From Candidatus Altimarinota bacterium (GTDB taxonomy: Bacteria; Patescibacteriota; Gracilibacteria; BD1-5; UBA2023), in the NCBI GenBank assembly GCA_003488655.1, contig DNKW01000076.1, positions 1-12,407 on the forward strand: a stretch of 12,407 bases of DNA, in the 5' to 3' direction. Each line of letters opens with the position of its first letter. Position 1 is the stretch's first letter. Positions 1 through 12,407 of the stretch are shown piece after piece. A program made the translations under genes and the position numbers. The notes beneath the pieces were generated by a model. That model ran no database searches and was not told the DNA's origin. It saw nothing but the letters and a program-made list of their open reading frames with translations.

Positions 1-471
1 GCGACCAATATAGAGACCCATAAAATGGACGCCCTGAAACTCATGACGGAACTCGAAAAAGAGAGCTTTGACGCGATACTCCTCGATGTTCCCTGTAGTG
101 CCGAGGGACGATTCAAAATAGACGACGAGCGTTCGTACGGATTCTGGACTCTCACAAATATCCGAGACAAAGCCATAATCCAGACAAGCCTTCTTGAGGC
201 GAGCATTCCGCTTCTGAAGAAATGAGGAGTCCTCGTCTACTCGACTTGTACGCTTGCTCCGGAAGAAAATGAGGGGGTGGTGAGCGATATTCTCGCGAAG
301 CATCCTGATCTCAAGCTAGAGGTTATTGATACGACCAGCATACCATTTGCCCGACCTGGAATTACGAGCTTCGAAAAAGCCCTATATAATAGCGATATAG
401 GAAACACGATTCGCATCCTGCCATCCAATCTGACGGAGGGGTTCTACGTGGCGAAGATTCGGAAGATATAG
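1..471 (+). CDS. NOL1/NOP2/Sun-family RNA cytosine-C5 methyltransferase, 3' part
   Basis: C-terminal 156 residues of a SAM-dependent RNA m5C methyltransferase (RsmB/RsmF/NSUN superfamily) that would methylate a cytosine in rRNA or tRNA. The gene starts before the window. Motif IV is visible as DVPCSAEG near residue 34, and the catalytic-cysteine motif VI as STCTLAPEENE from about residue 80. In this family both cysteines act in the covalent methyl transfer. The reading frame crosses a TGA at 223-225 just before GVLVYSTCT, exactly where relatives have the KPGG/KKGG turn, so TGA is read as Gly. It ends at TAG 469-471. Read with the standard code it would be two separate fragments. The N-terminal RNA-binding part (PUA or NusB-like), which would tell RsmB from RsmF-type enzymes, is outside the window, so the exact substrate is not assigned. 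Confidence 0.9.
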
Positions 472-488
472 TTTTGATTTTAAAGGAT

Positions 489-517
489 ATTTAATATACT
501 GCAGAGAGAGATATAAT
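489..517 (+). promoter_or_regulatory. Putative promoter of the membrane-protein gene
   Basis: A perfect TATAAT lies at 512-517 in the AT-rich 66-bp gap after the methyltransferase. The hexamer about 17 bp upstream (ATTTAA, 489-494) is a poor -35. Transcription would begin near 524 and leave a leader of only about 14 nt before the ATG at 538, with no Shine-Dalgarno sequence. Confidence 0.4.
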
Positions 518-537
518 CTTCCTACTTTATTAACATT

Positions 538-1422
538 ATGTCTATGAATAAATACATAAAAATCTGAATATTGCTATTACTTAGTCCCATAATGGTACTA
601 ATATTATCATACTTTGATATATGAAATGATGTATTAGAATTCTTTGGTATAATGTCTATATTTGTATGAATTCCACTATGATTAATTTCCATAGGATTTT
701 GAATTTCTTATTCTTACTCTAAAGATAAAAGTCATGGGCTTGTGATACAACCCACGTACAAAGAAAACGAATTATTACAAAGTAGGATTTTTATATGATT
801 ACCTATAATGATGGGGATATGACTTTATCTTTTATTTTCACCATCCCTAAGCTTAATAATCAAACCAGCAGATATTATTTTTATAAAATCATTTTTTATA
901 GGGATTCCTTTGCTGATAATTTTTGCCATAACTTACTCCTATGTTAAAGACAGGAAAGGAAAGTTATTAAAGAAGCGTGCTTATGATATAGGAATATTTC
1001 TTTGAATATTGTGACTATTTTGATTATATGATAAGTTTTCAACCATACCCCTATATTACTTTTTGATAATATTTTTCTGTTTGTGATTATTTTGATTAGT
1101 ATTGTTCATACTAAGTATTTTCTATACCACGAAAGAAATAGAAGAATATTTGATAGAACCATCATTGAAGAACACTAATCAAATTACAGACAGTAATGGG
1201 GTATCCTCGTCTAATAATAATGATCTTTTAGAAATAGAAAAAGAGTTTTTTGATGAGATTTTAAAAGAGTGAAATCTTCAAGAGTATCAAGAGTATTTAG
1301 CAGAAACTAAAGAATTATATACTGACTGAATAAAAGATGAGCAATCTGAAAAAAGAAAAGAAGAAATCAAAGTAGTACTAAACTATATAGATGAGGAGTA
1401 TAAGAAGTATAATTTAGTATAA
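538..1422 (+). CDS. Polytopic membrane protein of unknown function (code-25 ORF)
   Basis: A 294-residue protein that becomes visible only when TGA is read as Gly: the frame holds 14 TGA codons and no TAA or TAG before 1420-1422. With TGA counted, 14 of its 22 glycines use TGA. Six hydrophobic segments are seen at about residues 7-25, 36-58, 83-108, 112-136, 149-164 and 171-196. A charged, Glu/Lys-rich and probably cytoplasmic tail of about 95 residues follows, with coiled-coil character in its last 65. Many TGA glycines fall inside the membrane helices, as expected for Gly. No catalytic motif or known family is recognised. The base composition is much more AT-rich than in hflX or infB, which suggests weak constraint or foreign origin. 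The ATG is chosen because it follows the TATAAT closely; a second ATG lies two codons later. The downstream PEGA gene converges on it with an 18-bp gap. Confidence 0.8.
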
Positions 1423-1440
1423 GAAAATCTCCATACTGGA

Positions 1441-2721
1441 TTATTTCACCTCTTTCCTCAGCAAATCCACCAAATAACTCTTCCCTTCCTTGTTGAAGAA
1501 TATCTTCGCGTCCACCATGCGGATGACATCGACATCGTCGAGAATTTTCAGAATCTCCGTTGCCCCCTTATAATAGACATAGGCAGTTTTCTGGGTGACA
1601 AATATATAAGCACCGCTGATTTTGTAAACTTTTACATCCGTCGTGTGTTCGAGATCAAGTGTTTTGGAATACTCTTTTTCTGAATCAACGATCCGGAAGA
1701 TTCCTTTCCCTTGCTTTTCTCCGAAAAGGATTGTTTCACCGTCAAACTCCCATACCTGAGAGATAATATCCATTCACCAATCGGGTTTTTTTAAAGGAGT
1801 CACTGCTACATCCGTCTGATCAACAGGAAAAAGTATTCATTTTTCAAAGAAATAAGGAATTTTTCCTATATGAACCACGGCCTCAGGAAATTGCAACGCT
1901 CCGGTCTGATATTCGAAATATTTCCAACTCGTATTGGTATTGTCTCCGTTATAGATATATTCTGGGGTTACGACAATCCGATCATTGATGGCAAGGATTT
2001 TTTCACGAATATTCGATAGAGTTGGTCCTGCAAATCGCATCGTATCATGACAAAAAAGCTTTTCTCCATAATAGGAGATATTCGTGCACTGAAGAGGAAT
2101 CCCTGTTTCCCGATCAATAATGTTTGAAAATTTTTCGGTACTCTGAGAATAGCTGAGTATATTATTGCCATCCGTAAAATACTGTCATCCGATATGTTCG
2201 TATGTCGTCTCTATGCGGTGGAGTATCTGAAAATCTGTATCGACGACCAGAAGCGAACCCGTGGAAGTATCGTGAAGAAGAAAAAAGTCACCATATAATG
2301 AAAGTCCGCTAAAAGCAAGAGGCAGGGGAGAATATTCCGGATTGGCGAAAAGATTGACTACCGTGGTATAAAATGGATTCTTCTTGGTAATGTCGAGAAG
2401 AAGTGTAATGGGAAGATATCATTTTTTCTGAATGGAAATCGTATACTCTCCCAGATCAAATATCGTTTTAGAGTTATTATTATATGGCTCGCCATTTATA
2501 AAAATATTGTCAGGTGAAGGAAACACGTGTATGTCTATGATTCCAAAAGGCTTAAGAAATGCCTGTTTGGAAGTATCCTCCTGATTGAAAAATCGCTCAT
2601 AATTCGGATAATACCCCTGAAAGAAGAAAAAGAGAAACGCCGTCATAACAATCACCACCACCCAAAAGATGCGGTCTTTATTTTTATGTATGCGGATTTC
2701 TTCTTGATATGAGGGAATCAT
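1441..2721 (-). CDS. Membrane-anchored PEGA-domain protein
   Basis: 426 residues when four TGA codons (at 2421, 2187, 1839 and 1776, first base on the minus strand) are read as Gly; in the standard code it breaks into pieces. Residues 1-17 are charged, about 18-35 form one strong transmembrane helix, and the rest is predicted extracytoplasmic. Residues about 62-106 match the PEGA pattern: an IHVFPSPDNIFINGEPY strand-turn, then a short insert, then GEYTISIQKKGY. PEGA domains occur in surface and envelope proteins and are thought to mediate binding. The remaining 320 residues consist of repeated short beta-strand segments with aromatic and Asp-Gly turns, resembling a beta-propeller, but I cannot assign a blade repeat. 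It lies 260 bp downstream of the glycosyltransferase on the same strand, so joint expression is possible. No signal-peptidase site is evident, so it is probably a type II anchored protein. There is no Shine-Dalgarno before the ATG. Confidence 0.82.
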
Positions 2722-2762
2722 AGAACGATTTTAATTATTAGAAAAAAGGGGATAAAAGATTT

Positions 2763-2925
2763 TGTCATTCCGAGCGAAGTCGAGGAATCCCTTTGGGTCG
2801 GGTTGTTTGATGCAGAAATATCAGATATTTTCATGATTCATGTCTATGGGTTTCTTAACAATATTGTGTCAACGAGATGCTTTAAAGGGATTTCTCCACT
2901 TCACTCCGTTTCGGTCGAAATGACA
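2763..2925. repeat. 163-bp palindromic repeat of the GTCATTCCGAGCG type
   Basis: The ends are inverted copies. The left end begins TGTCATTCCGAGCGAAGTCG; the reverse complement of the right end begins TGTCATTTCGACCGAAACGG. Both continue into a shared GGAATCCCTTT or AAATCCCTTT block, after a 7-8 nt length difference. The centre (about 2797-2880) is unrelated AT-rich spacer. Ends of the form GTCATTCCGAGCG...GAGGAATC are familiar from non-coding dispersed repeats in many bacterial genomes. It has no ORF and fills the gap between the glycosyltransferase stop and the PEGA gene start. It could fold as a long RNA hairpin in a read-through transcript. Confidence 0.75.
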
Positions 2926-2981
2926 AGACTCTAATTTTTCTCTTTATTTTGAAGTAAAAGCTAATTTTATAATTCGAATCT

Positions 2982-4460
2982 TTACTTTCTTTTCATCTTC
3001 TGCGTCGTCTCAAACACTCCGAGTCGTTTTCAGAAAAAGAGGCGAACTTGGCTCTCGATGGCAGGAAGAGAGAAAAGTGTCAGGGTCAAGATGGGGATAA
3101 GTGCCCATTGGAAGATATTGAACAGGTAATCCCGCTTACGAAAAGTTGTGTATTTTTTCATAATGAGAATCGATATGATACTCGGAAATATAATGGTGGC
3201 AAATATCCAAGTGAAGAGAAAGGAGGTAATAAGGGGAATTGTGAGACTTACGATGGATTCACGAACCGATAAAAGAATACCGGGAATGTATCCGATAAAA
3301 AAGAGCATCAGTGCGCCTCCTGACCAGAACAAGTGATTCAGTATCAGGTACCTTGTTTTCTTGAATTTTTCGAGAAATGGAATATTTGGGTTGGCAACAA
3401 ACTGAGGGATGACATACTCGATGTCAGTACACCCCCACGACCAGCGCCTGAGCTGTTTATATTGTGATTTTACGGTCTTGAGAAAAGTTTCCTCCTCGAC
3501 GATATCCATTTTACATACCGCCGGAACGTTCACGATTCTAAACATTCCATCAAATGCGAAATAACTTCGCCAGTATTGAAACCCGTCTTCAACGATGCTT
3601 GTCAGCGACCAGAAATCCGCTTTCTTGAGACAATACAGAGACTGACCATAGACTGCGAAGTTCCGGTAGAACTCCGGATTCTGCGACTCGGAAAGCTGCC
3701 AAAATGTCGTCCCCATGGCGATAAGCCGAGCGAAAAACGTTCCCTTGTGCCAATTATTGGCGTACACGGGAGTATATTGATAGATGGCGTTTTGATTGTG
3801 TTCCGTGGAGAGAAAAGTATAGCTTGTGATGAGAAAGAAGTTTGTTTCCACGAGAGTATCGGTATCGATAGTGGACACGAAAGTCATATGATCATCAAAC
3901 TCTTCCATTTCTGTATACCGTTTTATTGCATAGGTAATATTGGAACCCTTTACTTTTCCTTCACCTTTAATATCTGCGGGATGAACCACATTTACAATCC
4001 GCACAGGAGAGGTTCACGAATAATCGGCAACGATTTTTTCTGCATTTTCCATCGCCCCGGGTCCGCGCTCTTCGGTTGCGAGAAGGACGGTGATATTTTC
4101 CAGATACGGATAATCATTCGCGATAATAGATGCGATATTTTCAGCGATGACGTCATAAGGCTCGGAATAAATAGGAACGATAACAATGTGTTTCAAATGC
4201 TTCGCTTCGCCAAGGATCACCGGATAATCGGAATAATCGTGTTTGTTAGTACGAAGGAGTCGGATATAGGAAGTGAGGACATAGTAATAGGACTCAAATA
4301 CCTTTATAGTCCAATAGGAGATATAAAAAGCTATGAAAAGAATACCCACCTGATAGCTGATACTCAAAAGTATTATCGGAATAAAAAAGATAATACAGAG
4401 AAAGATAAGGGGGAGCTTGGAGAGAAAAGCTTGGCTCAGAAAATACGGATGAAGTTTCAT
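2982..4460 (-). CDS. Family-2 membrane glycosyltransferase (cellulose/hyaluronan-synthase-like)
   Basis: 492 residues when two TGA codons (first bases 4016 and 3032, minus strand) are read as Gly; stop TAA at 2982-2984. Two N-terminal membrane helices (about 17-33 and 37-55) precede a cytoplasmic GT-A domain that begins HIVIVPIYSEP (about 91-101). The DxD-type motif STIDTDT is near 196-202, the acid-base VED motif near 290-292, and QLRRW (QxxRW) near 336-340. About four membrane helices follow. This is the arrangement of processive GT2 enzymes that polymerise and export a polysaccharide, with QxxRW typical of the processive branch. The sugar cannot be read from the sequence. The second TGA adds a 16-residue tail ending FETTQKMKRK that the standard code would cut off. 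A good promoter lies upstream, and the PEGA protein follows on the same strand, which suggests a small surface-polysaccharide unit. Confidence 0.88.
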
Positions 4461-4489
4461 GTTGCAGTATAATAATAGGAATGACGGGG

Positions 4490-4517
4490 ATTATAGAGAA
4501 AAGTGGGGGGATTGCAA
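4490..4517 (-). promoter_or_regulatory. Sigma70-type promoter for the glycosyltransferase
   Basis: On the minus strand TTGCAA (4512-4517) and TATAAT (4490-4495) are separated by 16 bp. Transcription would start near 4483, giving a leader of about 22 nt that lacks a Shine-Dalgarno sequence. Confidence 0.6.
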
Positions 4518-4551
4518 ATTATCTGAAAAGTTTCCCTTTACTTTTGCTTTC

Positions 4552-4691
4552 AATTTCATACTATTTTATGAAATTACGTTGATTTCATGATTCATCGCTT
4601 TTCGATAGTATTTTCATTTCTCGTACATATGAAGCCGTGGACATCCTTAAATATATCAAGGCCATATGAACATCGAAATGAAAATACCATC
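4552..4691. repeat. Small hairpin and 88-bp imperfect palindrome upstream of hflX
   Basis: Two structures share the gap between the divergent glycosyltransferase and hflX. A perfect 9-bp stem (AATTTCATA / TATGAAATT, 6-nt loop) lies at 4552-4575. Next, 4604-4691 is an imperfect palindrome whose outer arms are GATAGTATTTTCATTTC and the complement of GATGGTATTTTCATTTC; CATATG recurs in both arms and CCTT/AAGG closes the centre. Neither has a following T-run, so they are not ordinary terminators. The palindrome does not share the core of the 121-bp repeat family found elsewhere in the window. It may be a leader structure of hflX, an operator or another short mobile palindrome. No clear promoter for hflX was found here. 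Confidence 0.6.
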
Positions 4692-4739
4692 TTTCGCTCA
4701 GAATCAGATTGACTAGGAATCCTCATAAACTCACTCTCT

Positions 4740-5963
4740 ATGAAAACCATCATCGTCGACATCGCTCCACGAAATATCAAAACCGAGGATCTGGAAGCTC
4801 GAATGACCGAGCTCGAATCGCTCGTATCCACCTATGGCGACACAGTGGTCGTGAAGCGCATCCAGAAACGCGACACTCCGGATTATGTCACGTACGTCGG
4901 AACGGGGAAACTTGATGAGATGATCGCCGCAGGCGAGGAGCTCGGAGCCGAGCGGATCGTCATCGGGAACATACTGAAACCGGCGCAGATCTACCATATC
5001 AATGAGATTCTCCGGGAACGAAAATCCAAAATCCAAGCCTGGGATAGAATCGATTTGATTCTGAAGATATTTGACCAACATGCCCATTCACCGGAAGCCA
5101 AGCTCCAGATCGAGCTTGCCTCCATCCGCCATATGGGGCCGCGGATTTTCGGAATGGGAATGGAGCTCTCCCGACAAGGATGAGGTGGCTCCGGAGCTAT
5201 GCGCGGACTTGGGGAAACCAACACCGAGATTATGAAGCGCCACCTTCGCGACCACGAGCTCAAGATTATCGAAAAACTCGAGAAGTACAGTAGAACCCGG
5301 AGCGAACACCGCAAGGCCCGCAAGCGCAAAAACCTGAAAACAGTCGGAATCGTCGGATACACAAACGCCGGAAAATCCACCCTTATGAATACCCTGACTC
5401 ATAAATGAGTCCTCGCCGAAGATAAACTCTTCGCAACTCTTGGGACGAGTGTCGGGAAGATGATGCTTCAGAGAAAACCTCACACGAATGCAGAAACATG
5501 GAAAAATAGTCAAATTTGTCGTGAAAATTGAGCATCAGAGTGAGCTGTACGAGATAGTACAGTGAACGAGGAAGCGGAAATTTGAACGCAAAGTTGGCAT
5601 TTTAACATGTTTCCGGTACTTGTGAATGATACCATCGGATTCATCCGTGACTTGCCCCCAGAACTCATCCGGGCGTTTTCTTCGACACTGGAGGATTCCA
5701 TAGAAGCCGATATATTGCTCCACGTCATCGATGCGAGCGATCCGAAGGTTCTCGATAAAATCGACATTGTGGACACGACCCTGTCGAACATCGGAGCCAC
5801 GCAACCGAGAATCTACGTGTTCAACAAGATCGACCACATGTCCGAGCTCGCCATCCTTATGATGTGGGAGCAGTTCGCGGAACTGAACCCTCTCTTTATC
5901 AGTGCGGTGAGCGGACGGGGAATAGAGGAATTGAAGGAGAGGATTGGAGAGATGGTGGAATAA
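4740..5963 (+). CDS. hflX: Ribosome-associated GTPase HflX, with an in-frame insertion
   Basis: HflX binds the 50S subunit and rescues or splits stalled ribosomes. The protein has 407 residues if five TGA codons (5181, 5406, 5529, 5541, 5583) are Gly. The N-terminal HflX domain carries KRDTPDYVTYVGTGK. The family signature from about residue 143 reads SRQGGGGSGAMRGLGET, with one Gly from TGA. The G domain has GYTNAGKST (206-214), LFATL (230-234), NDTIGF (296-301), NKID (362-365) and SAVSG (388-392). Relatives have about 14 residues between FATL and the strand before DTxGF; here there are about 58. The excess matches a 121-bp hairpin repeat (5493-5613) that keeps frame. The ATG at 4740 gives the usual HflX N-terminus (KTIIVDI). 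With code 25 the frame is also open back to an ATG at 4629, which is less likely. No Shine-Dalgarno is seen. The TAA overlaps a terminator palindrome. Confidence 0.93.
5493..5613 (+). repeat. 121-bp hairpin element, copy 1, in frame within hflX
   Basis: The ends GAAACATG (5493-5500) and CATGTTTC (5606-5613) are perfect inverted copies. Inside them TCAAATTT (5509-5517 area) pairs with AAATTTGA (5578-5585), and the tip is CTGTAC-GAGATA-GTACAG. The core TTGAGCATC...GTGAG...GTGAACGAGG.AGCGGAAA is shared with the elements at 7807-7927 and 10758-10880. Translated in the hflX frame it contributes three TGA (Gly) codons and no TAA or TAG. The corresponding frame in copy 3 contains TAG and in copy 2 TAA. 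Exact insertion boundaries are uncertain by a few bases. Confidence 0.8.
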
Positions 5964-5999
5964 AAATACCCCATTCCGAATTCGGAATGGGGTATTTTT
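5962..5999. terminator. Bidirectional terminator shared by hflX and hicA
   Basis: A perfect 19-bp inverted repeat without a spacer: the left arm starts AAAAATACCCC and the right arm ends GGGGTATTTTT. It has A/T runs on both outer sides, so it can act as a rho-independent terminator in either direction. It overlaps the hflX TAA and lies 8 bp beyond the hicA stop, between convergent genes. Confidence 0.85.
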
Positions 6000-6006
6000 C
6001 AAAGTT

Positions 6007-6216
6007 CTACTTCTCCAAATCTTCCTTTGTCAGTCATGTCTGTTTCAAAATTGCCATGAGAGTCCCAACGGGGATATCTTTCTTGTGAAGTGACACGGTC
6101 GTTCGTTTCTTCGAAGCACTCTGGTACATAATCACGTGACTTCCGGTTATGTGATCTTCCATCCATCAAAACCTCTTCAAGAACGCGATAATATCTTTCG
6201 GTTTATACTGTTTCAT
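6007..6216 (-). CDS. hicA: HicA-type mRNA interferase toxin
   Basis: 69 residues, not visible in the standard code because codons 17 (6166-6168) and 61 (6034-6036) are TGA. Read as Gly they give the classical HicA pattern: KPKDIIAFLKRFGW, then TGSHVIMY with the family's conserved histidine (residue 27), a KKRTTVSLHKKDIPVGTL strand-turn, and ILKQTGLT. HicA has a dsRBD-like fold and cleaves mRNA (and tmRNA) to arrest translation until HicB neutralises it. It begins 14 nt inside the 3' end of hicB, so the two are translationally coupled on one transcript in the order antitoxin then toxin. Its stop TAG (6007-6009) is next to the bidirectional terminator. The catalytic His, the conserved TGSH and the full length suggest an active toxin. 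Confidence 0.9.
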
Positions 6217-6430
6217 AGACAGAAACTGAGGAGATAAAACGGGTTTTTTCTTCCACCGGGACATATTCCCCATGTTTTCTCTGAGACGATATATATGCTT
6301 TTATAGCATCCTGTACCATCTCTCTTGCCTCTTCCATATTTTCCCCATAGGAAACGCACCCCGGTAATTCCAGAACTTCCACGGTATACCCACCCTCTGG
6401 CTCCTGTGTAAAGATTGTTGTATATTGCAT
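6203..6430 (-). CDS. hicB: HicB-type antitoxin
   Basis: 75 residues from the ATG at 6430. The family core is clear: EPEGGYTVEVLELPGCVSYG (GGYxVxxxxLPGCxSxG), followed by ENMEEAREMVQDAIKAYI. HicB forms a partly degraded RNase H-like fold that covers the HicA active site. This is the short single-domain form, as no ribbon-helix-helix or HTH region follows the core. The frame is open to an upstream ATG at 6460 (10 residues longer), but HicB proteins normally start right before the first strand (here MQYTTIF), and a TATAAT at 6441-6446 lies inside that extension, so 6430 is preferred. No in-frame TGA is present. The gene overlaps hicA by 14 nt. Confidence 0.88.
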   Translation of the reverse strand: MQYTTIFTQEPEGGYTVEVLELPGCVSYGENMEEAREMVQDAIKAYISSQRKHGEYVPVEEKTRFISSVSVYETV

Positions 6431-6440
6431 AGTATGGTTG

Positions 6441-6460
6441 ATTATAGAATATATCAACAT
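6441..6460 (-). promoter_or_regulatory. Putative hicBA promoter (-10 region)
   Basis: On the minus strand a TATAAT at 6441-6446 ends 10 nt before the hicB ATG, which would give a nearly leaderless mRNA. A second TATAAT-like box overlaps 6455-6460. No convincing -35 was seen. The AT-rich repeats around both boxes (TATATAAT, GATATATTC) could serve HicAB autoregulation, but no clean operator palindrome is evident. Confidence 0.4.
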
Positions 6461-6509
6461 TATATACCGAGGGCTAGAAAATCAAAAAGATTTTACGTTG
6501 CAAGGTAGA

Positions 6510-6565
6510 ATCCCCTCTTTATCAGTGCGGTGAGTGGTCGGGGAATCGGGGAGATGGTGGGGTAA
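6510..6565 (+). pseudogene. Decayed second copy of the hflX 3' end
   Basis: CTCTTTATCAGTGCGGTGAG (from 6514) is identical to hflX 5892-5911. It continues GTGGTCGGGGAAT (hflX: CGGACGGGGAAT) and, after loss of about 31 bp relative to hflX, GGGGAGATGGTGGGGTAAAAA (hflX: GGAGAGATGGTGGAATAAAAA). It would encode PLFISAVSGRGI-GEMVG and a stop, i.e. the G5 motif and C-terminus of HflX. No upstream GTPase sequence is attached. Together with the real hflX tail it brackets the hicBA pair. Confidence 0.75.
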
Positions 6566-6604
6566 AAAAATCCCCGAAGTCTCCTCCAAAGAGTTATCGG
6601 GGAA
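6564..6604 (-). terminator. Rho-independent terminator of the nuclease gene
   Basis: On the minus strand TCCCCGA (6597-6603) pairs with TCGGGGA (6571-6577), followed directly by seven T residues (6564-6570). The 19-nt loop can itself close with CTC/GAG. It lies 17 bp after the nuclease stop codon and overlaps the end of the hflX remnant. Confidence 0.75.
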
Positions 6605-6620
6605 ATATATACAATACTGT

Positions 6621-7523
6621 TTACTTACATAGACTCTCGCAAGGTACTGTATCTTTATCTCTATCGAGACTGTTAATTCAACAAGAATTGAGGTAGTATC
6701 TCGCTTCCTCACATGAATTCATCTCTGTACAGTAATTCTTTTTTATCGAACAGGAGAATGAACCAATGATCGGAGTGATAATACTTGGAATTGTCAGTAT
6801 ATTTTGTACAGAGGGCTTGGTTGTTGTTTCATTTCAAGACTTTTCTACTGGTTTTCTTTTTCCTTCGCAGTATTTCCAGACCCCTACTACATTTTTCTTT
6901 GCCTCATCCTCGGCTGATTTTAGTTGATTATCATATTTGTTCGGAACTTTGTATACATAGTTAAATCCATATCCTTCACGTATTGCCAAGGCTTCATAAT
7001 AAACACCTCATGATAGAAATATATGTCCAAGTGTACGACCGTATTTATCGATTGTATCTTGTGTAGGATCTGTTTCTATCGTAATAGTCTGTCATGATAG
7101 GGCTTTTGTTGCAAATTCGCTCGCTTCTCTTCCGTAACATTCTTCATAACCGGTCCGAGTTGAATACTTTTCCGGGGTATCGATTCCGATAATACGAATA
7201 GTTTTTGTTTCACTATTACGAATTACTTTGATTGTATCACCGTCCGTTACCGAAGTGACTACATATGTGGTATTATCTGTAGCCTGTAAGTGTTCGATTA
7301 CTGCACTGACAAGATATGATATCCTTTCATTCTTTGCTTGTTTCTCTTTAAGTGTCTCAAGAGCACGAATGAATTTTGCTCTCGAGGTTCCTTTGCTTAT
7401 AATTGCCTCAACCTTCTTAGTTACAGCATCGATAGCTATAATATCTTTCTCATTCGGCGTATAGGCGAAAGTTGTTCCTGTGAGATAAAGTACAAACAGG
7501 ATAGAAAATAAAATTCTTCTCAT
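6621..7523 (-). CDS. Secreted SNase-fold nuclease with C-terminal excalibur domain
   Basis: 300 residues once four TGA codons (first bases 7094, 7010, 6836 and 6680) are read as Gly; the standard code would cut it off in the middle of the nuclease domain. Residues 1-20 look like a signal peptide (RR, hydrophobic ILFSILFVLYL, TTFA before Tyr21). About 21-85 is a helical linker. The staphylococcal-nuclease fold (about 86-210) shows TDGDTIKV (93-100), RIIGIDTPE with Arg110, Asp115 and Glu118, and DKYGR with Arg163, equivalent to the catalytic Arg35, Asp40, Glu43 and Arg87. Residues about 258-300 form an excalibur calcium-binding domain (C..KKNYC, MNSCEEARYYLNSCG, DRDKDTVPCESLC). It should degrade extracellular DNA or RNA in a Ca2+-dependent way, which suits nucleotide scavenging in a CPR bacterium. 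Two Gly-TGA codons follow LS in nearly identical contexts (ALSG, FLSGG). Confidence 0.92.
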
Positions 7524-7550
7524 AAAAAAGACGTATTAAAAAATAAATAC

Positions 7551-7718
7551 GCCAAAATAGGGGGGGGTTGTCCGGTGTTTTGGCAAACATAAAAGGGATA
7601 GTCCACTCTATGTTCGCCAAAACATTGTATCTAATTCCTGAAAAGGAAGGAGATAGTCGAGATGGACTACCCCTTTATATTTTCAGAAATTAGATAAATT
7701 TAAATACAATATTTTGGC
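7551..7718. repeat. 168-bp block of nested inverted repeats with GCCAAAATA ends
   Basis: The block begins GCCAAAATA and ends TATTTTGGC. The motif GCCAAAA recurs four times in alternating orientation (7551, 7578-7584, 7616, 7712-7718). Two long hairpins share the third copy. One is 7576-7624 (TGTTTTGGCaAACATA against TATGTTcGCCAAAACA). The other is 7616-7718, whose arms start GCCAAAACATTGTAT and, on the reverse strand, GCCAAAATATTGTAT. Only one of them can form at a time. A further inverted pair, ATAAAAGGGATAGTCCA and TGGACTACCCCTTTAT, also crosses between them. A run of eight G (7560-7567) lies near the nuclease-proximal end. No ORF is present. It sits in the 5' region of the nuclease gene. 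Confidence 0.7.
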
Positions 7719-7756
7719 ACTTTCGATTATACCAATCTAGAAGAAAAAGCAAAAAG

Positions 7757-7785
7757 AAATCCTTATAAGTATTGCTTATAAGGAT
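7757..7785 (-). terminator. Rho-independent terminator of infB
   Basis: A perfect 12-bp stem (AATCCTTATAAG / CTTATAAGGATT) with a 5-nt loop. On the minus strand it is followed by TCTTTTTGCTTTTT. It lies about 145 bp past the infB stop, so the hairpin element at 7807-7927 would be transcribed in the infB 3' UTR. Confidence 0.8.
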
Positions 7786-7806
7786 TCTTATCTCACCAGA
7801 ACTCTC

Positions 7807-7927
7807 GGAACTTTCGCAAAAGCGAAGTAATTCGAGTGCAAATTGAGTATCGAAACGAGGCGTACGACTGTACGATGAGTGAGACACGGAAATTTAAGCT
7901 CGAAGAACGAGTTTTTCCGGAAATTCC
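7807..7927 (+). repeat. 121-bp hairpin element, copy 2, after infB
   Basis: Same core as copies 1 and 3: AAATTGAGTATCG...CGAGGCGTAC, a GACT loop, then GTACGATGAGTGAGACACGG and AAATTT. Tip CGTAC-GACT-GTACG. The outer arms GGAACTTTC.GCAAAAGC...TTCGAG (7807 on) and CTCGAA...GTTTTTCCGGAAATTCC (to 7927) are imperfectly complementary. The element ends 2 bp before the infB stop codon and lies antisense within the infB 3' UTR. Confidence 0.75.
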
Positions 7928-7929
7928 CC

Positions 7930-10380
7930 TTATTTCTTGATCACCGTCTTGTACATTTCAAGCACATCCCCCACTTCCGGTCTCACATCTCCCTTGTAGG
8001 ATATTCCACACTCATCTCCCGCTTCGACTTCATTGACGTCGAGGAGTCCTGATTTGAGGTTGGCAACTTCTCCGTTGGCGATCTTCTTACCATCTCGGAT
8101 GAGACGGATCTTCGCTCGGTTCTCGACTTTTCCGGTCTTAACTTCGAGTCCGACGATCATTTTGTCTTTTCCGGTATAGAATATAGCCTTCACCTTCGCA
8201 TCTCCGAGCTCGACATCCTCGTAACGGGTATCGACCATCCCTGTAATGATCGATTCCACTCGGTCAAGTACATGGTAGATAACCTTCTTGTCGATGAACT
8301 CGATCTTGGAATTGGCGAGGGTATTCTTGGCTCGCACCCCGACTCCGACGTTGTAGGCGATGAGGATCGCTTGGCTCGTACCCGCAAGTACGACATCGGA
8401 ATCATTCACATCTCCGACAGCGGAGTGGATGAAGGTCACGCGGGTTTCTCCTGTAGAGAGCTTGGAAAGGGCGTTCTTGAGAGCTTCCAAACTTCCATTG
8501 GATTCACACTTGAGTACCACTTTGAGTTGCTTGAGTCCTCCGGTTTTGAGTCGGTTGAGAAGGAGATCAAGGGAGGCTCCTTCGAAGTTATGGATACTTT
8601 TGGTGCTCTGAACGAGCTGGAATTCGTGTGCTTTTGCAGCAGCGGTGAGAGAATCGGGAACTACCTGGAGGATATCCCCTCCTCCGACCGTCTTGGACAT
8701 ACCGGAAACGAGCACGGGAACCGATGGTCCGGCGTGATCGACATTCTTTCCTTTGAAATCCCGAAGGAATCGGACACGCCCGCTTGCTGATCCGCAAGCC
8801 ACATAGTCTCCTTTCTTGATGGTTCCGGTATTCACGAGTACGGTTGCGAGAGGCCCGAGCTTCGCATCAAGATGCGATTCGATCACGGTAGCAATAGCGG
8901 GGCGATCTACGGTTGCCTTCAGATCCATCATCTCAGTAGAGAGGAGGATCATATCGAGGAGGTCTTCGATACCAAGTCCGGTATGAGCGGAAACTGGAAC
9001 GACGATAATATCTCCTCCCCATTTTTCCGGCTGCAATCCCTGTTCTGCAAGCTGTCCATATATGAGCTCGACATTGGCTCCCGGTTTGTCCATCTTATTG
9101 ACGGCGATAATCATGGGAACACCTGCTTCTTTGGCATGATTAATGGACTCAATGGTCTGAGGCTTCATACCCTCATCTCCCGCGATAACAATCACGGCAA
9201 GATCGGTAAGTTTCGCTCCGCGCGCTCGCATGATGGAAAAAGCTTCATGTCCCGGAGTATCAAGAAAGGTAATCTTCTTTCCATTTTTTTCCACCTGATA
9301 GGCTCCGATCTTCTGGGTAATACCTCCGGCTTCCCCTTTGGTAATCTCGGTATTTCGGATGTAGTCGAGAATAGAAGTCTTTCCGTGATCGACATGCCCC
9401 ATGACAGAGACGATCGGTGCCCGAGTAATCATCTTCGATACATCATCATTTTTCAGAAGCTCTTCGATATTTCCCTCCATAAGACTGGAAACGCTTGCCT
9501 TGGTGCTGATTTCTTTGATAATCTTGATTCCAAATATTTCCCCGATGAGAAAACAGGTATCGAAGTCGATCTTGGTATTGATAGTGACCATCATCCCGTT
9601 CTTCATAAGCTCGGTGATAATCTTCACGAGCGGAACCCCGATTTTCTCGGAGAATTCTTTTACGGTCAATACCTCTGGAATAGTAATCTCCTGTCCGGTC
9701 TTATCGGTCAGGGTCTGTTTAATTTCATCGATGTCTCGCTCTTTCTTTTCCGAAGTGGATGCCGCTTTCCCAGACCGACGGAATCCTCCATCATCTTCCG
9801 CATACCCTCGAGTCTTGAGCGTTTTTCTTCCTCCGTGTCTCTCACCGAAAGAAAATGGCGACTTTCCAGATCCTCCCTTGGTTTTATTCACCCCGAATAC
9901 TTTTTTCTGGGCACCTCCCGATTCTATAGAACGTGGAACAAACACAAAAGGTGTTTCATTTCCTTCCTTTTTTATAGGAGGAGCCTTGGTGGCAGGGGAA
10001 AAGGAAACTCGTGGAGTAAATGGGGTCTTTTTCTGTTCTTTTGGAGTATGGGAGAATGCATCTCTTGAAACAAACTTCGGAGCGTCAAAGGAAGACGGGG
10101 TTTTCACTTCTTGTTCCTCTTTTTTCTGGTCTTTTGGCGACCAAATAATAGCAACCGAGGATTTTTTCTCTTTCGTCGTCGCTGTTGTTTTCTGAACGGA
10201 ATCCTCTTTCGCTGTTTCTGTGGATATTGCCAATGTCTCTTTCACAGGAGCCTCTTCCACTTTTTTCGCTTTTACTTTCAATTTGAGTCATTTCTTTTTT
10301 GAAGCATCTTCTTCTATGGAGGCAGGAGTGGGAATATGAGCGTAATAGTCGTCGAAATTTGTAATAGTCTTGTCAGTCAT
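7930..10380 (-). CDS. infB: Translation initiation factor IF-2
   Basis: 816 residues. IF-2 is the GTPase that brings initiator tRNA to the 30S subunit and promotes subunit joining. About 230 low-complexity Lys/Glu/Ser/Pro-rich residues precede the IF2_N-type segment ([18 protein letters not shown]...). The G domain has GHVDHGKT (G1), GGITQKIG (G2; most IF-2 have His where Lys is seen), DTPGHEAF (G3), NKMD (G4) and SAHTG (G5). The beta-barrel domain II, domain III and the C-terminal fMet-tRNA-binding domain follow to the end. The true start is the ATG at 10380, giving MTDKTITNF...; one TGA (10288-10290) at codon 31 is Gly, so the standard code would begin the protein too late at an internal TTG (10281). 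Here infB stands alone, divergent from the 16S gene, and not in a nusA-infB-rbfA cluster. No Shine-Dalgarno is present. Confidence 0.97.
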
Positions 10381-10397
10381 TATGTTTAGAGGGGATA

Positions 10398-10425
10398 ATT
10401 ATATAAGAAGAGAATACGCAAACAA
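10398..10425 (-). promoter_or_regulatory. infB promoter
   Basis: On the minus strand TTGTTT (10420-10425) and TATAAT (10398-10403) are separated by 16 bp. Only 17 nt lie between the -10 box and the ATG, so the leader would be about 10 nt, too short for a normal Shine-Dalgarno. Confidence 0.55.
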
Positions 10426-10509
10426 CGGCTTTTTGTGGCAATTGTGGCTTATTTCTGTTTTTTGTTATGTGCTAATATAGGAAAGAGTATATGTTTTCGG
10501 TCTTCAAAG

Positions 10510-10578
10510 TCAAAAAACTTGTAAAAAATTTATAAAAAATACAAAATCTTTTGACTTTAAAGCGTTTTTCCATATAAA
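10510..10578 (+). promoter_or_regulatory. rRNA promoter with A/T-rich UP-like region
   Basis: TTGACT (10551-10556), a 16-bp spacer and TATAAA (10573-10578) point towards the 16S gene. The 40 bp upstream are almost pure A/T with phased A-runs (10513-10546), as in the UP elements that recruit the RNA polymerase alpha subunit at rRNA promoters. Transcription would begin near 10585, giving a leader of about 300 nt. Confidence 0.65.
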
Positions 10579-10584
10579 TCTCTG

Positions 10585-10757
10585 CACGTTTTCGGGAGGT
10601 ATCTATTGCCGACGGAAAATACATTAACCCGCTCCTTAACATCCCACCCACAAGAAGATGAAACTTCAAGTGGGGAAGTAAATAACCACGATACATAAAG
10701 TACCTGAACATGTACTCTAAATACTGTTCATTAGCCATATTTAAATATATGCTAGCA
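10585..10757 (+). other. 16S rRNA leader, no gene recognised
   Basis: This stretch lies between the proposed rRNA start site and the hairpin element before 16S. The only reading frame is on the opposite strand (ATG at 10738 to a stop at 10472, 88 residues). It shows no recognisable family and would run antisense through the rRNA promoter, so it is not called as a gene. No boxA-type antitermination sequence was identified with certainty. Confidence 0.4.
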
Positions 10758-10880
10758 AGTCTCTTTCGAAATGAGATGAGTTCGAGGAAAAGTTGAGCAT
10801 CGTAGTGAGTCGTACCGAAAGGTACGGTGAACGAGACGCGGAAACTTTGACGAAGAAATCGCTCATTCACGAAAGAGACT
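10758..10880 (+). repeat. 123-bp hairpin element, copy 3, abutting 16S rRNA
   Basis: The base of the hairpin is a perfect 11-bp match: AGTCTCTTTCG (10758-10768) with CGAAAGAGACT (10870-10880). Upper arms contain ATGAG/CTCAT and TTCG/CGAA pairs. The tip is CGTACC-GAAA-GGTACG, a GNRA tetraloop. The core TTGAGCATCGTAGTGAG and GTGAACGAGACGCGGAAA is shared with copies 1 and 2. It ends about 2 bp before the mature 16S 5' end inferred by homology. Confidence 0.8.
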
Positions 10881-10882
10881 AC

Positions 10883-12357
<1,475 letters not shown>

Positions 12358-12407
12358 TCGAACGGTTTATTTACTTCTCCATTGTTTTGTCTTCTGGTGG
12401 GTTGGAT

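Follow-up and report, generated by a model that had tools for sequence, protein, structure and literature searches.

The hflX gene of Candidatus Altimarinota bacterium on contig DNKW01000076.1 (positions 1 to 12,407, the stretch referred to here as the window) contains an in-frame segment between the motifs LFATL and DTIGF, which we take, in line with an earlier prediction made on the letters alone, to be switch I and G3 of the GTPase. This segment is very probably a non-autonomous palindromic repeat, inserted at the tip of the β2-β3 hairpin and tolerated by the host protein as selfish DNA. Sequence comparisons established that it belongs to a multicopy family, that the hairpin of this family is kept by covariation and that orthologous sites exist without the element; they further established that copies inside genes keep the reading frame, mostly in one frame and mostly through TGA codons, which are read as glycine under genetic code 25.

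The proposed course of events is that a palindromic repeat of about 125 nt would have dispersed through the Gracilibacteria family by moving as DNA, and that one copy would have inserted in hflX at the tip of the β2-β3 (interswitch) hairpin. The segment would stay in the hflX mRNA and, on translation, add to the protein a disordered loop of some 40 residues that lies outside the G-domain core, and HflX would still work with it. Copies in proteins would survive by landing in loops at the surface, helped by the frequent openness of one of the element's frames under a code in which TGA is glycine, so that the element would behave as selfish DNA tolerated by its host protein, as Rickettsia palindromic elements do. 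Coordinates are given in Table 1.

Table 1. Positions of the hflX gene, its motifs and insert, and the other element copies in the window.
Feature	Position	Strand	Basis or remark
hflX, 407 codons + stop	4740..5963	+	Open frame under code 25; Pfam GTP-bdg_N, GTP-bdg_M, MMR_HSR1
LFATL (switch I), intact	5427..5441	+	Translation of hflX
Hairpin element (R1/R2 family), in-frame hflX copy, residues ~251-292	5490..5616	+	R1/R2 models, fold
Element core in hflX	5524..5585	+	Ungapped 71% identity to 16S-leader copy; contains apical stem and GTGAG/GTGAAC internal loop
TGA = Gly264, element codon 13 (0-based)	5529..5531	+	In frame
TGA = Gly268, element codon 17 (0-based)	5541..5543	+	In frame
TGA = Gly282, element codon 31 (0-based)	5583..5585	+	In frame
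DTIGF (G3), intact	5628..5642	+	Translation of hflX
Second element copy	7805..7928	+	R1, R2; ends one base before stop of infB (- strand, 7930-10380)
Third element copy, leader just 5' of 16S rRNA	10755..10880	+	R1, R2 (R2 bounds 10756-10880); Rfam 16S match 10883-12357

The insert in HflX and its predicted structure

The original prediction held that the surplus residues between LFATL and G3 coincide with an element copy, and the mapped copy bears this out; the range it gave (5430-5640) does contain the element but was too wide, taking in switch I and G3. Its statement that the frame stays open through three TGA glycine codons also stands, all three being in frame under code 25. Reading of the sequences confirmed that hflX has GAG where the 16S-leader copy has TAG, and the TAA of the infB copy is absent, with TGA at that place in hflX. 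Outside the insert, TGA is read as glycine also at Gly148 (SRQGGGG segment) and Gly223 (HKGVLAEDKLFATL segment).

Between LFATL and NDTIGF the window HflX has 61 residues. This distance, taken by a strict pattern, could be measured in 92 of 121 HflX proteins (query included; 29 had no pattern match) and amounted to 20-37 residues in 71 and 38-96 in 21, while a mycobacterial HflX has 17 by the same measure. The earlier figure of about 14 residues as usual is near this mycobacterial value. Two close relatives (L003 and L005; L numbers denote loci and G numbers genomes) have 27 residues and no element there, and the remaining long loops listed are unlike that of the window in sequence, so that the ancient shared loop that would have told against the original prediction was not found in these relatives. 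The long loop could be an old feature of Gracilibacterial HflX that resembles the repeat by chance, and the 21 proteins with 38-96 residues at this place are in its favour; however, with L003 and L005 short, with the other loops unlike this one, and with a full-length match of the window loop to an independent model of the repeat (R2, below), which speaks strongly against chance likeness, we regard this as extremely improbable.

In genome G006 the same HflX loop is filled by an unrelated multicopy repeat, with 21 matches in G006 (itself included), 33 in G007, 18 in G002 and 7 in G003, some of these matches being pieces or both strands of one copy. The HflX loop is thus a recurrent acceptor of repeats. 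The L001 loop had one further match (68 nt at 83%), which is only suggestive of a repeat. Two further candidates were rejected: the second G007 match to the L007 loop sits on the contig carrying the remainder of that split hflX and was not counted, and the L002 loop resembles a repeat peptide already known, but among the matches to the G006-loop repeat its hflX contig (G002:C22) does not appear.

Other Gracilibacteria HflX loops (L016, L035, L055 and others) hold differing repeat-like peptides, up to 96 residues from LFATL to NDTIGF. Two of these peptides, VIPAKAGI (L035) and PHPNPLPRREG (L016), presumably resemble other repeat peptides.

The AlphaFold2 model (92 sequences) of the window HflX had a mean pLDDT of 82.8. 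Residues 263-283, lying between strands 238-244 and 290-301, had pLDDT below 50, as did residues 146-156. The insert is thus predicted, with low confidence, to be a flexible loop outside the core, at the distal tip of the interswitch β2-β3 hairpin. This agrees with the external loop that structure prediction had been expected to look for; the placing of the insert in the 'nucleotide-sensing part' of the GTPase was overstated. Foldseek returned ribosome-bound HflX or HflXr structures as best matches.

These results bear on whether the window HflX is inactive, a pseudogene in the making, as the addition of about 40 residues beside switch I and G3 might suggest. Against this, G1, LFATL and DTIGF are all intact (for the flanking motifs as predicted), the model places the loop outside the core, and several sister HflX proteins have equally long, differing loops. 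Furthermore, dN/dS between the window hflX and six relatives was 0.023-0.053, much as in four pairs of relatives (0.031-0.049); at dS values of 0.76-2.14 these ratios are rough and a very recent loss of function would not show. We consider inactivity very unlikely.

A dispersed hairpin family and its vacant sites

The element is a palindromic hairpin of about 125 nt folding into a single long stem-loop, within the 100-150 bp of such palindromes. Folded on its own, the segment 5478-5627 of hflX had z = -7.4 and none of 200 shuffles was equally stable. A first model (R1) was built from six copies, those of the window included, and gathered the copies of genome G003; RNAalifold on these six gave 31 pairs, with both sides changed in 19. 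A second model (R2) was built from the 61 G003 copies alone, to lessen circularity, and recovered all three window copies at the bounds in Table 1; a fourth window match (10523-10572, E 0.31) was at chance level. The hflX copy scored 108 bits with R1, of whose training set it is part, and 91 bits (E 2e-16) with R2, built without window copies. Over the 61 G003 copies, in an alignment (A5) that was itself fitted to the model, both sides of pairs had changed in 250 cells against 88 in shuffles, and the covariation score was 0.371 against 0.178, with 0 of 500 shuffles as high and slid controls also far exceeded.

These 61 copies came, at E 0.01, from a search of all five contigs (1,050,770 bp) of G003, the genome to which L003 belongs. 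At E 0.1 there were at least 69 copies in G001, 31 in G002, 10 in G004, 31 in G005, 11 in G006 and 24 in G007. Within the family of G003, 21 of 27 genomes had at least one match at E 0.001 and nine had at least ten, with at least 129 in G014; these family-wide counts are lower bounds, part of the candidates having been scored. Among more distant HflX loci (41 of 73, 734 kb) no R2 match was better than E 0.65, and no match to the element was found in plasmids and phages. Some copies are about 20-50 nt longer through a further internal insertion (L001:99-247, L193:7310-7455 and G003 C5:178544-178719). Close to the 3' end of a glycosyltransferase gene the window has a further inverted repeat, with arms at 2772-2794 and 2884-2906; at this place L001 and L003 have element copies.

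Comparison of 60 copies from outside G003 allowed 43 to be located on G003 through their flanking sequence, and at nine of these sites G003 has a copy too. In the 16S leader, L006 has about 26 nt between the flanks that enclose the window copy, and L002 also has a copy, with differing arms. RimO-like orthologues of G001 and G003 have copies at differing places, each missing at that place in the other. In 33 of the 43 placed copies the conserved sequence begins again no more than 2 bases from the 3' end of the element; the 5' side is ragged, with 0-97 bases unaligned, and some host bases at filled sites also differ from the G003 orthologue.

At sites where the G003 gene is uninterrupted, 12 of 12 copies (11 sense, 1 antisense) leave the frame open, in a set that was defined by G003 genes and not by openness so as to counter gene-caller bias. 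A thirteenth site (L105) was left out, as the overlapping G003 ORF itself spans an element antisense and looks spurious. The net insert length from BLAST coordinates was a multiple of 3 in 11 of the 12 and 133 in L178:7218, where the translation is still in frame; the claim of frame keeping relies on the reading frame and not on these lengths.

Copies inside genes, their phase and their TGA codons

In total, 124 copies were placed in eight genomes, 61 in G003 and 63 elsewhere. Before the latter count, six of a set of 66 matches were dropped, five as the same copies on overlapping loci and one as the other strand of L005. Sense-strand copies inside called ORFs numbered 25 (12 of 61 in G003 and 13 of 63 elsewhere), a class that comes from a crude gene caller by which frame-closing copies tend to be missed. 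Antisense copies inside ORFs were two: one in G003, in a spurious-looking ORF, and one elsewhere, in AspRS. A further in-frame copy, L178:7218, was found later, having first been classed as other; it is among the 97 copies counted below as outside ORFs, and the antisense AspRS copy is among the 26 rows of the in-ORF openness list.

Pfam matches were found in 17 of 20 host ORFs scanned and none in 3. The hosts included UvrA, FtsJ, two UvrD-type helicases, a class-V aminotransferase, RrnaAD (KsgA-type), a Lactamase_B_2 protein, MurB, GT28 (MurG-type), RecG, PheT domains and methyltransferases, a radical-SAM/UPF0004 (RimO-like) protein in two genomes and, for the antisense copy, a class-II synthetase with a GAD domain; the names RimO, KsgA, Dus and AspRS are our reading of these matches. 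A tRNA-U5-methyltransferase-like gene (L101:121-1851) has two in-frame copies.

Phase 0 was used by 21 of the 25 sense copies, for which the binomial probability is 2.6e-7 with one third expected, and 23 have in-frame TGA. The 25 elements contain 64 in-frame TGA codons (about 60 per 1000 codons) against 58 in the 11,606 codons of the rest of the ORFs, the ORF with two copies being counted twice. The TGA positions of hflX (element codons 13, 17 and 31) are the three commonest among the 25, and the identical pattern occurs in L101:1501, G003 C5:148353 and G003 C1:39750. Among the 97 copies outside ORFs, code 25 leaves this main phase open in 45 and the standard code (table 11) in 4. Each of the five remaining frames is open in 33-55 of the 97 under code 25, and the antisense frames in 21-24 under table 11; since other frames are as often open, openness alone explains neither the single phase nor why in-frame copies are so rarely antisense. 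Counts are by ORF phase, those by peptide-matched frame having been dropped because indels at the apex shift the match.

These results also bear on whether the segment is absent from the protein, being spliced from the RNA or skipped by the ribosome like the bypassing hairpins of Magnusiomyces mitochondria. The strength of the hflX hairpin (z as above) would suit this, and untranslated palindromic inserts in yeast mitochondrial genes are described in an excerpt of PMC6649704. However, Rfam at gathering scores gave no ribozyme, intron or other relevant family for the element (on 5440-5660 up to E 1 the sole match was the miRNA family MIR537, E 0.067, far below cut-off), and at about 125 nt it showed no self-splicing catalytic core. 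Skipping would moreover free the frame, so that the keeping of the frame by all 12 copies at sites inside G003 genes speaks against it, as does the use of one phase in 21 of 25 sense copies when that phase is open in 45 of 97 outside ORFs. The probability of splicing or skipping is accordingly judged to be very small.

Several points nevertheless weigh against insertion of a mobile, host-tolerated repeat as the explanation. Close relatives carry other long loops in HflX, and G003 hflX has 56 nt in the alignment gap, so that an insertion is indistinguishable there from a short loop replaced by other sequence. Four of the 25 sense copies are outside phase 0, two have no in-frame TGA, and one (G003 C1:189259) is a weak match (31.7 bits). 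No mobilising enzyme was identified by a Y1 family search or by a pattern search of G003. A Y1 transposase as mover was rejected since PF01797 matches do not track copy number: there were none in G003 with its 61 copies and none in G002, G004, G006 and G007, against 1 in G001 and 14 in G005, these being draft genomes. The pattern search of G003 for longer or half elements gave four stray matches, none convincing, one of them inside a copy split at a piece border.

Copies at stop codons and known palindromic elements

Outside proteins the commonest position is flush with a stop codon. In G003 the end of 38 of the 61 copies falls between -5 and +2 nt of the stop codon of an opposite-strand gene, and 35 of the 63 copies elsewhere, the infB copy of the window among them, are likewise stop-flush and antisense. 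The orientation rule is therefore sense and in frame inside genes, and antisense and flush with stop codons at gene ends. As nine of the 43 placed copies have a G003 counterpart, the stop-flush copies cannot all be counted as independent. The stop at three filled sites (L085, L087 and L194:3424) is TAG, its third base coming from the element, against TAA in the G003 orthologue; genome-wide in G003, TAG is slightly commoner at such genes, ending 13 of the 38 that have an element and 186 of the remaining 733, and a junction rule, in which the element supplies the third base and TAG replaces TAA, has weak support.

Such positions raise the possibility that the element serves the host as a functional RNA or 3'-end signal, with intragenic copies as by-products, which would be compatible with the preferred explanation. 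For other hairpins of G003, too, the commonest starting point is 0-2 nt past a stop (46 of 235), so that part of the stop-flush pattern may reflect very short 3' regions; the uniform antisense orientation is left unexplained by these. Against a functional role, the copies are patchy at orthologous sites (nine of 43), range from 0 to at least 129 within one family, occur also inside genes, and have no regular T-tract by eye in the flanks of the G003 copies. We therefore regard such a role as unlikely, though a good deal less so than splicing, skipping or inactivity of HflX.

Insertion of a selfish repeat has its nearest parallel in the Rickettsia palindromic elements (RPEs), reportedly described by Ogata et al. 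(2000, 2002). The likeness to these, drawn in the original prediction, held in length, stem-loop form, multicopy state, occurrence of intergenic and in-frame copies, a preferred frame, unrelated housekeeping hosts and empty sites. In the excerpts of PMC2229807 and PMC10969869, the Rickettsia elements measure 105-146 bp, 19 reading frames contain one in frame, and guanylate kinase kept its activity despite an insert. The present element, compared with them by features and not by sequence, differs in its distant lineage, in the sense codons that TGA as glycine provides in 23 of 25 in-frame copies, and in its stop-flush antisense copies, no report of which appears in those excerpts.

Wolbachia and Methanocaldococcus jannaschii, which use the standard code and belong to other lineages, likewise have palindromic repeats in frame in housekeeping genes. 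These inserts are known here as cited in an excerpt of PMC2996958. REP palindromes differ on two counts. They are linked to Y1 transposases (RAYT), to which copy-rich G003 gave no match. They are multicopy hairpins as here, but of 20-40 bp (PMC3733652, in excerpt) against about 125 nt. ERIC/RU-1, YPAL/RU-2, Correia and other miniature inverted-repeat transposable elements (MITEs) are likewise small repeats with structure, and in some cases they are joined in frame to ORFs (PMC2759123 and PMC2229807, in excerpt); several bacterial MITEs have TA termini and target duplications (PMC2229807), whereas the present element has paired ends, no clear target duplication by eye at the sites inspected and no partner found.

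No description of palindromic elements or repeats of this kind appeared among the open-licence PMC records listed for Gracilibacteria, Patescibacteria or the candidate phyla radiation (12 of 1,000 where the terms were loose), and the terms palindrome and hairpin are absent from the excerpts of PMC6851277 and PMC11452946. By its sequence features, the element appears to be a new RPE-like family in a code-25 lineage, marked by the reassigned TGA and the stop-flush antisense copies. Protein-coding palindromes are known, from the excerpts above, in few lineages (Rickettsia, Wolbachia and one archaeon); the present case adds a distant lineage in which a stop codon is reassigned and where the standard code would truncate the host protein at 23 of the 25 sense in-frame inserts. 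This raises the question of whether codon reassignment changes which selfish elements live inside genes. As the main phase is open in so many more copies under code 25 than under the standard code, we tentatively suggest, with more doubt than conviction, that the reassignment of TGA to glycine may have opened protein interiors to the element, the code change creating a niche for selfish DNA, and that the orientation rule may point to directional, perhaps stop-codon-linked, insertion or selection. However, the antisense frames open under the standard code have yielded one convincing antisense in-frame copy (AspRS); open antisense frames being so rarely used, openness is not the whole story. The family also provides insertions made by nature in enzymes that are well studied (KsgA, UvrA, RecG, PheT and HflX types) and that have orthologues without them, and evidence for TGA as glycine that comes from repeats besides conserved proteins.

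Two further observations concern the 3' end of the window hflX. A terminator-like hairpin (5964-6000) begins directly after its stop codon, as many G003 hairpins do. The 3' end of the gene (5885-5929, 87%) and the following stretch are duplicated downstream at 6508-6574; the L005 alignment spans both the hflX 3' end and this duplicate, which may thus be shared by L005.
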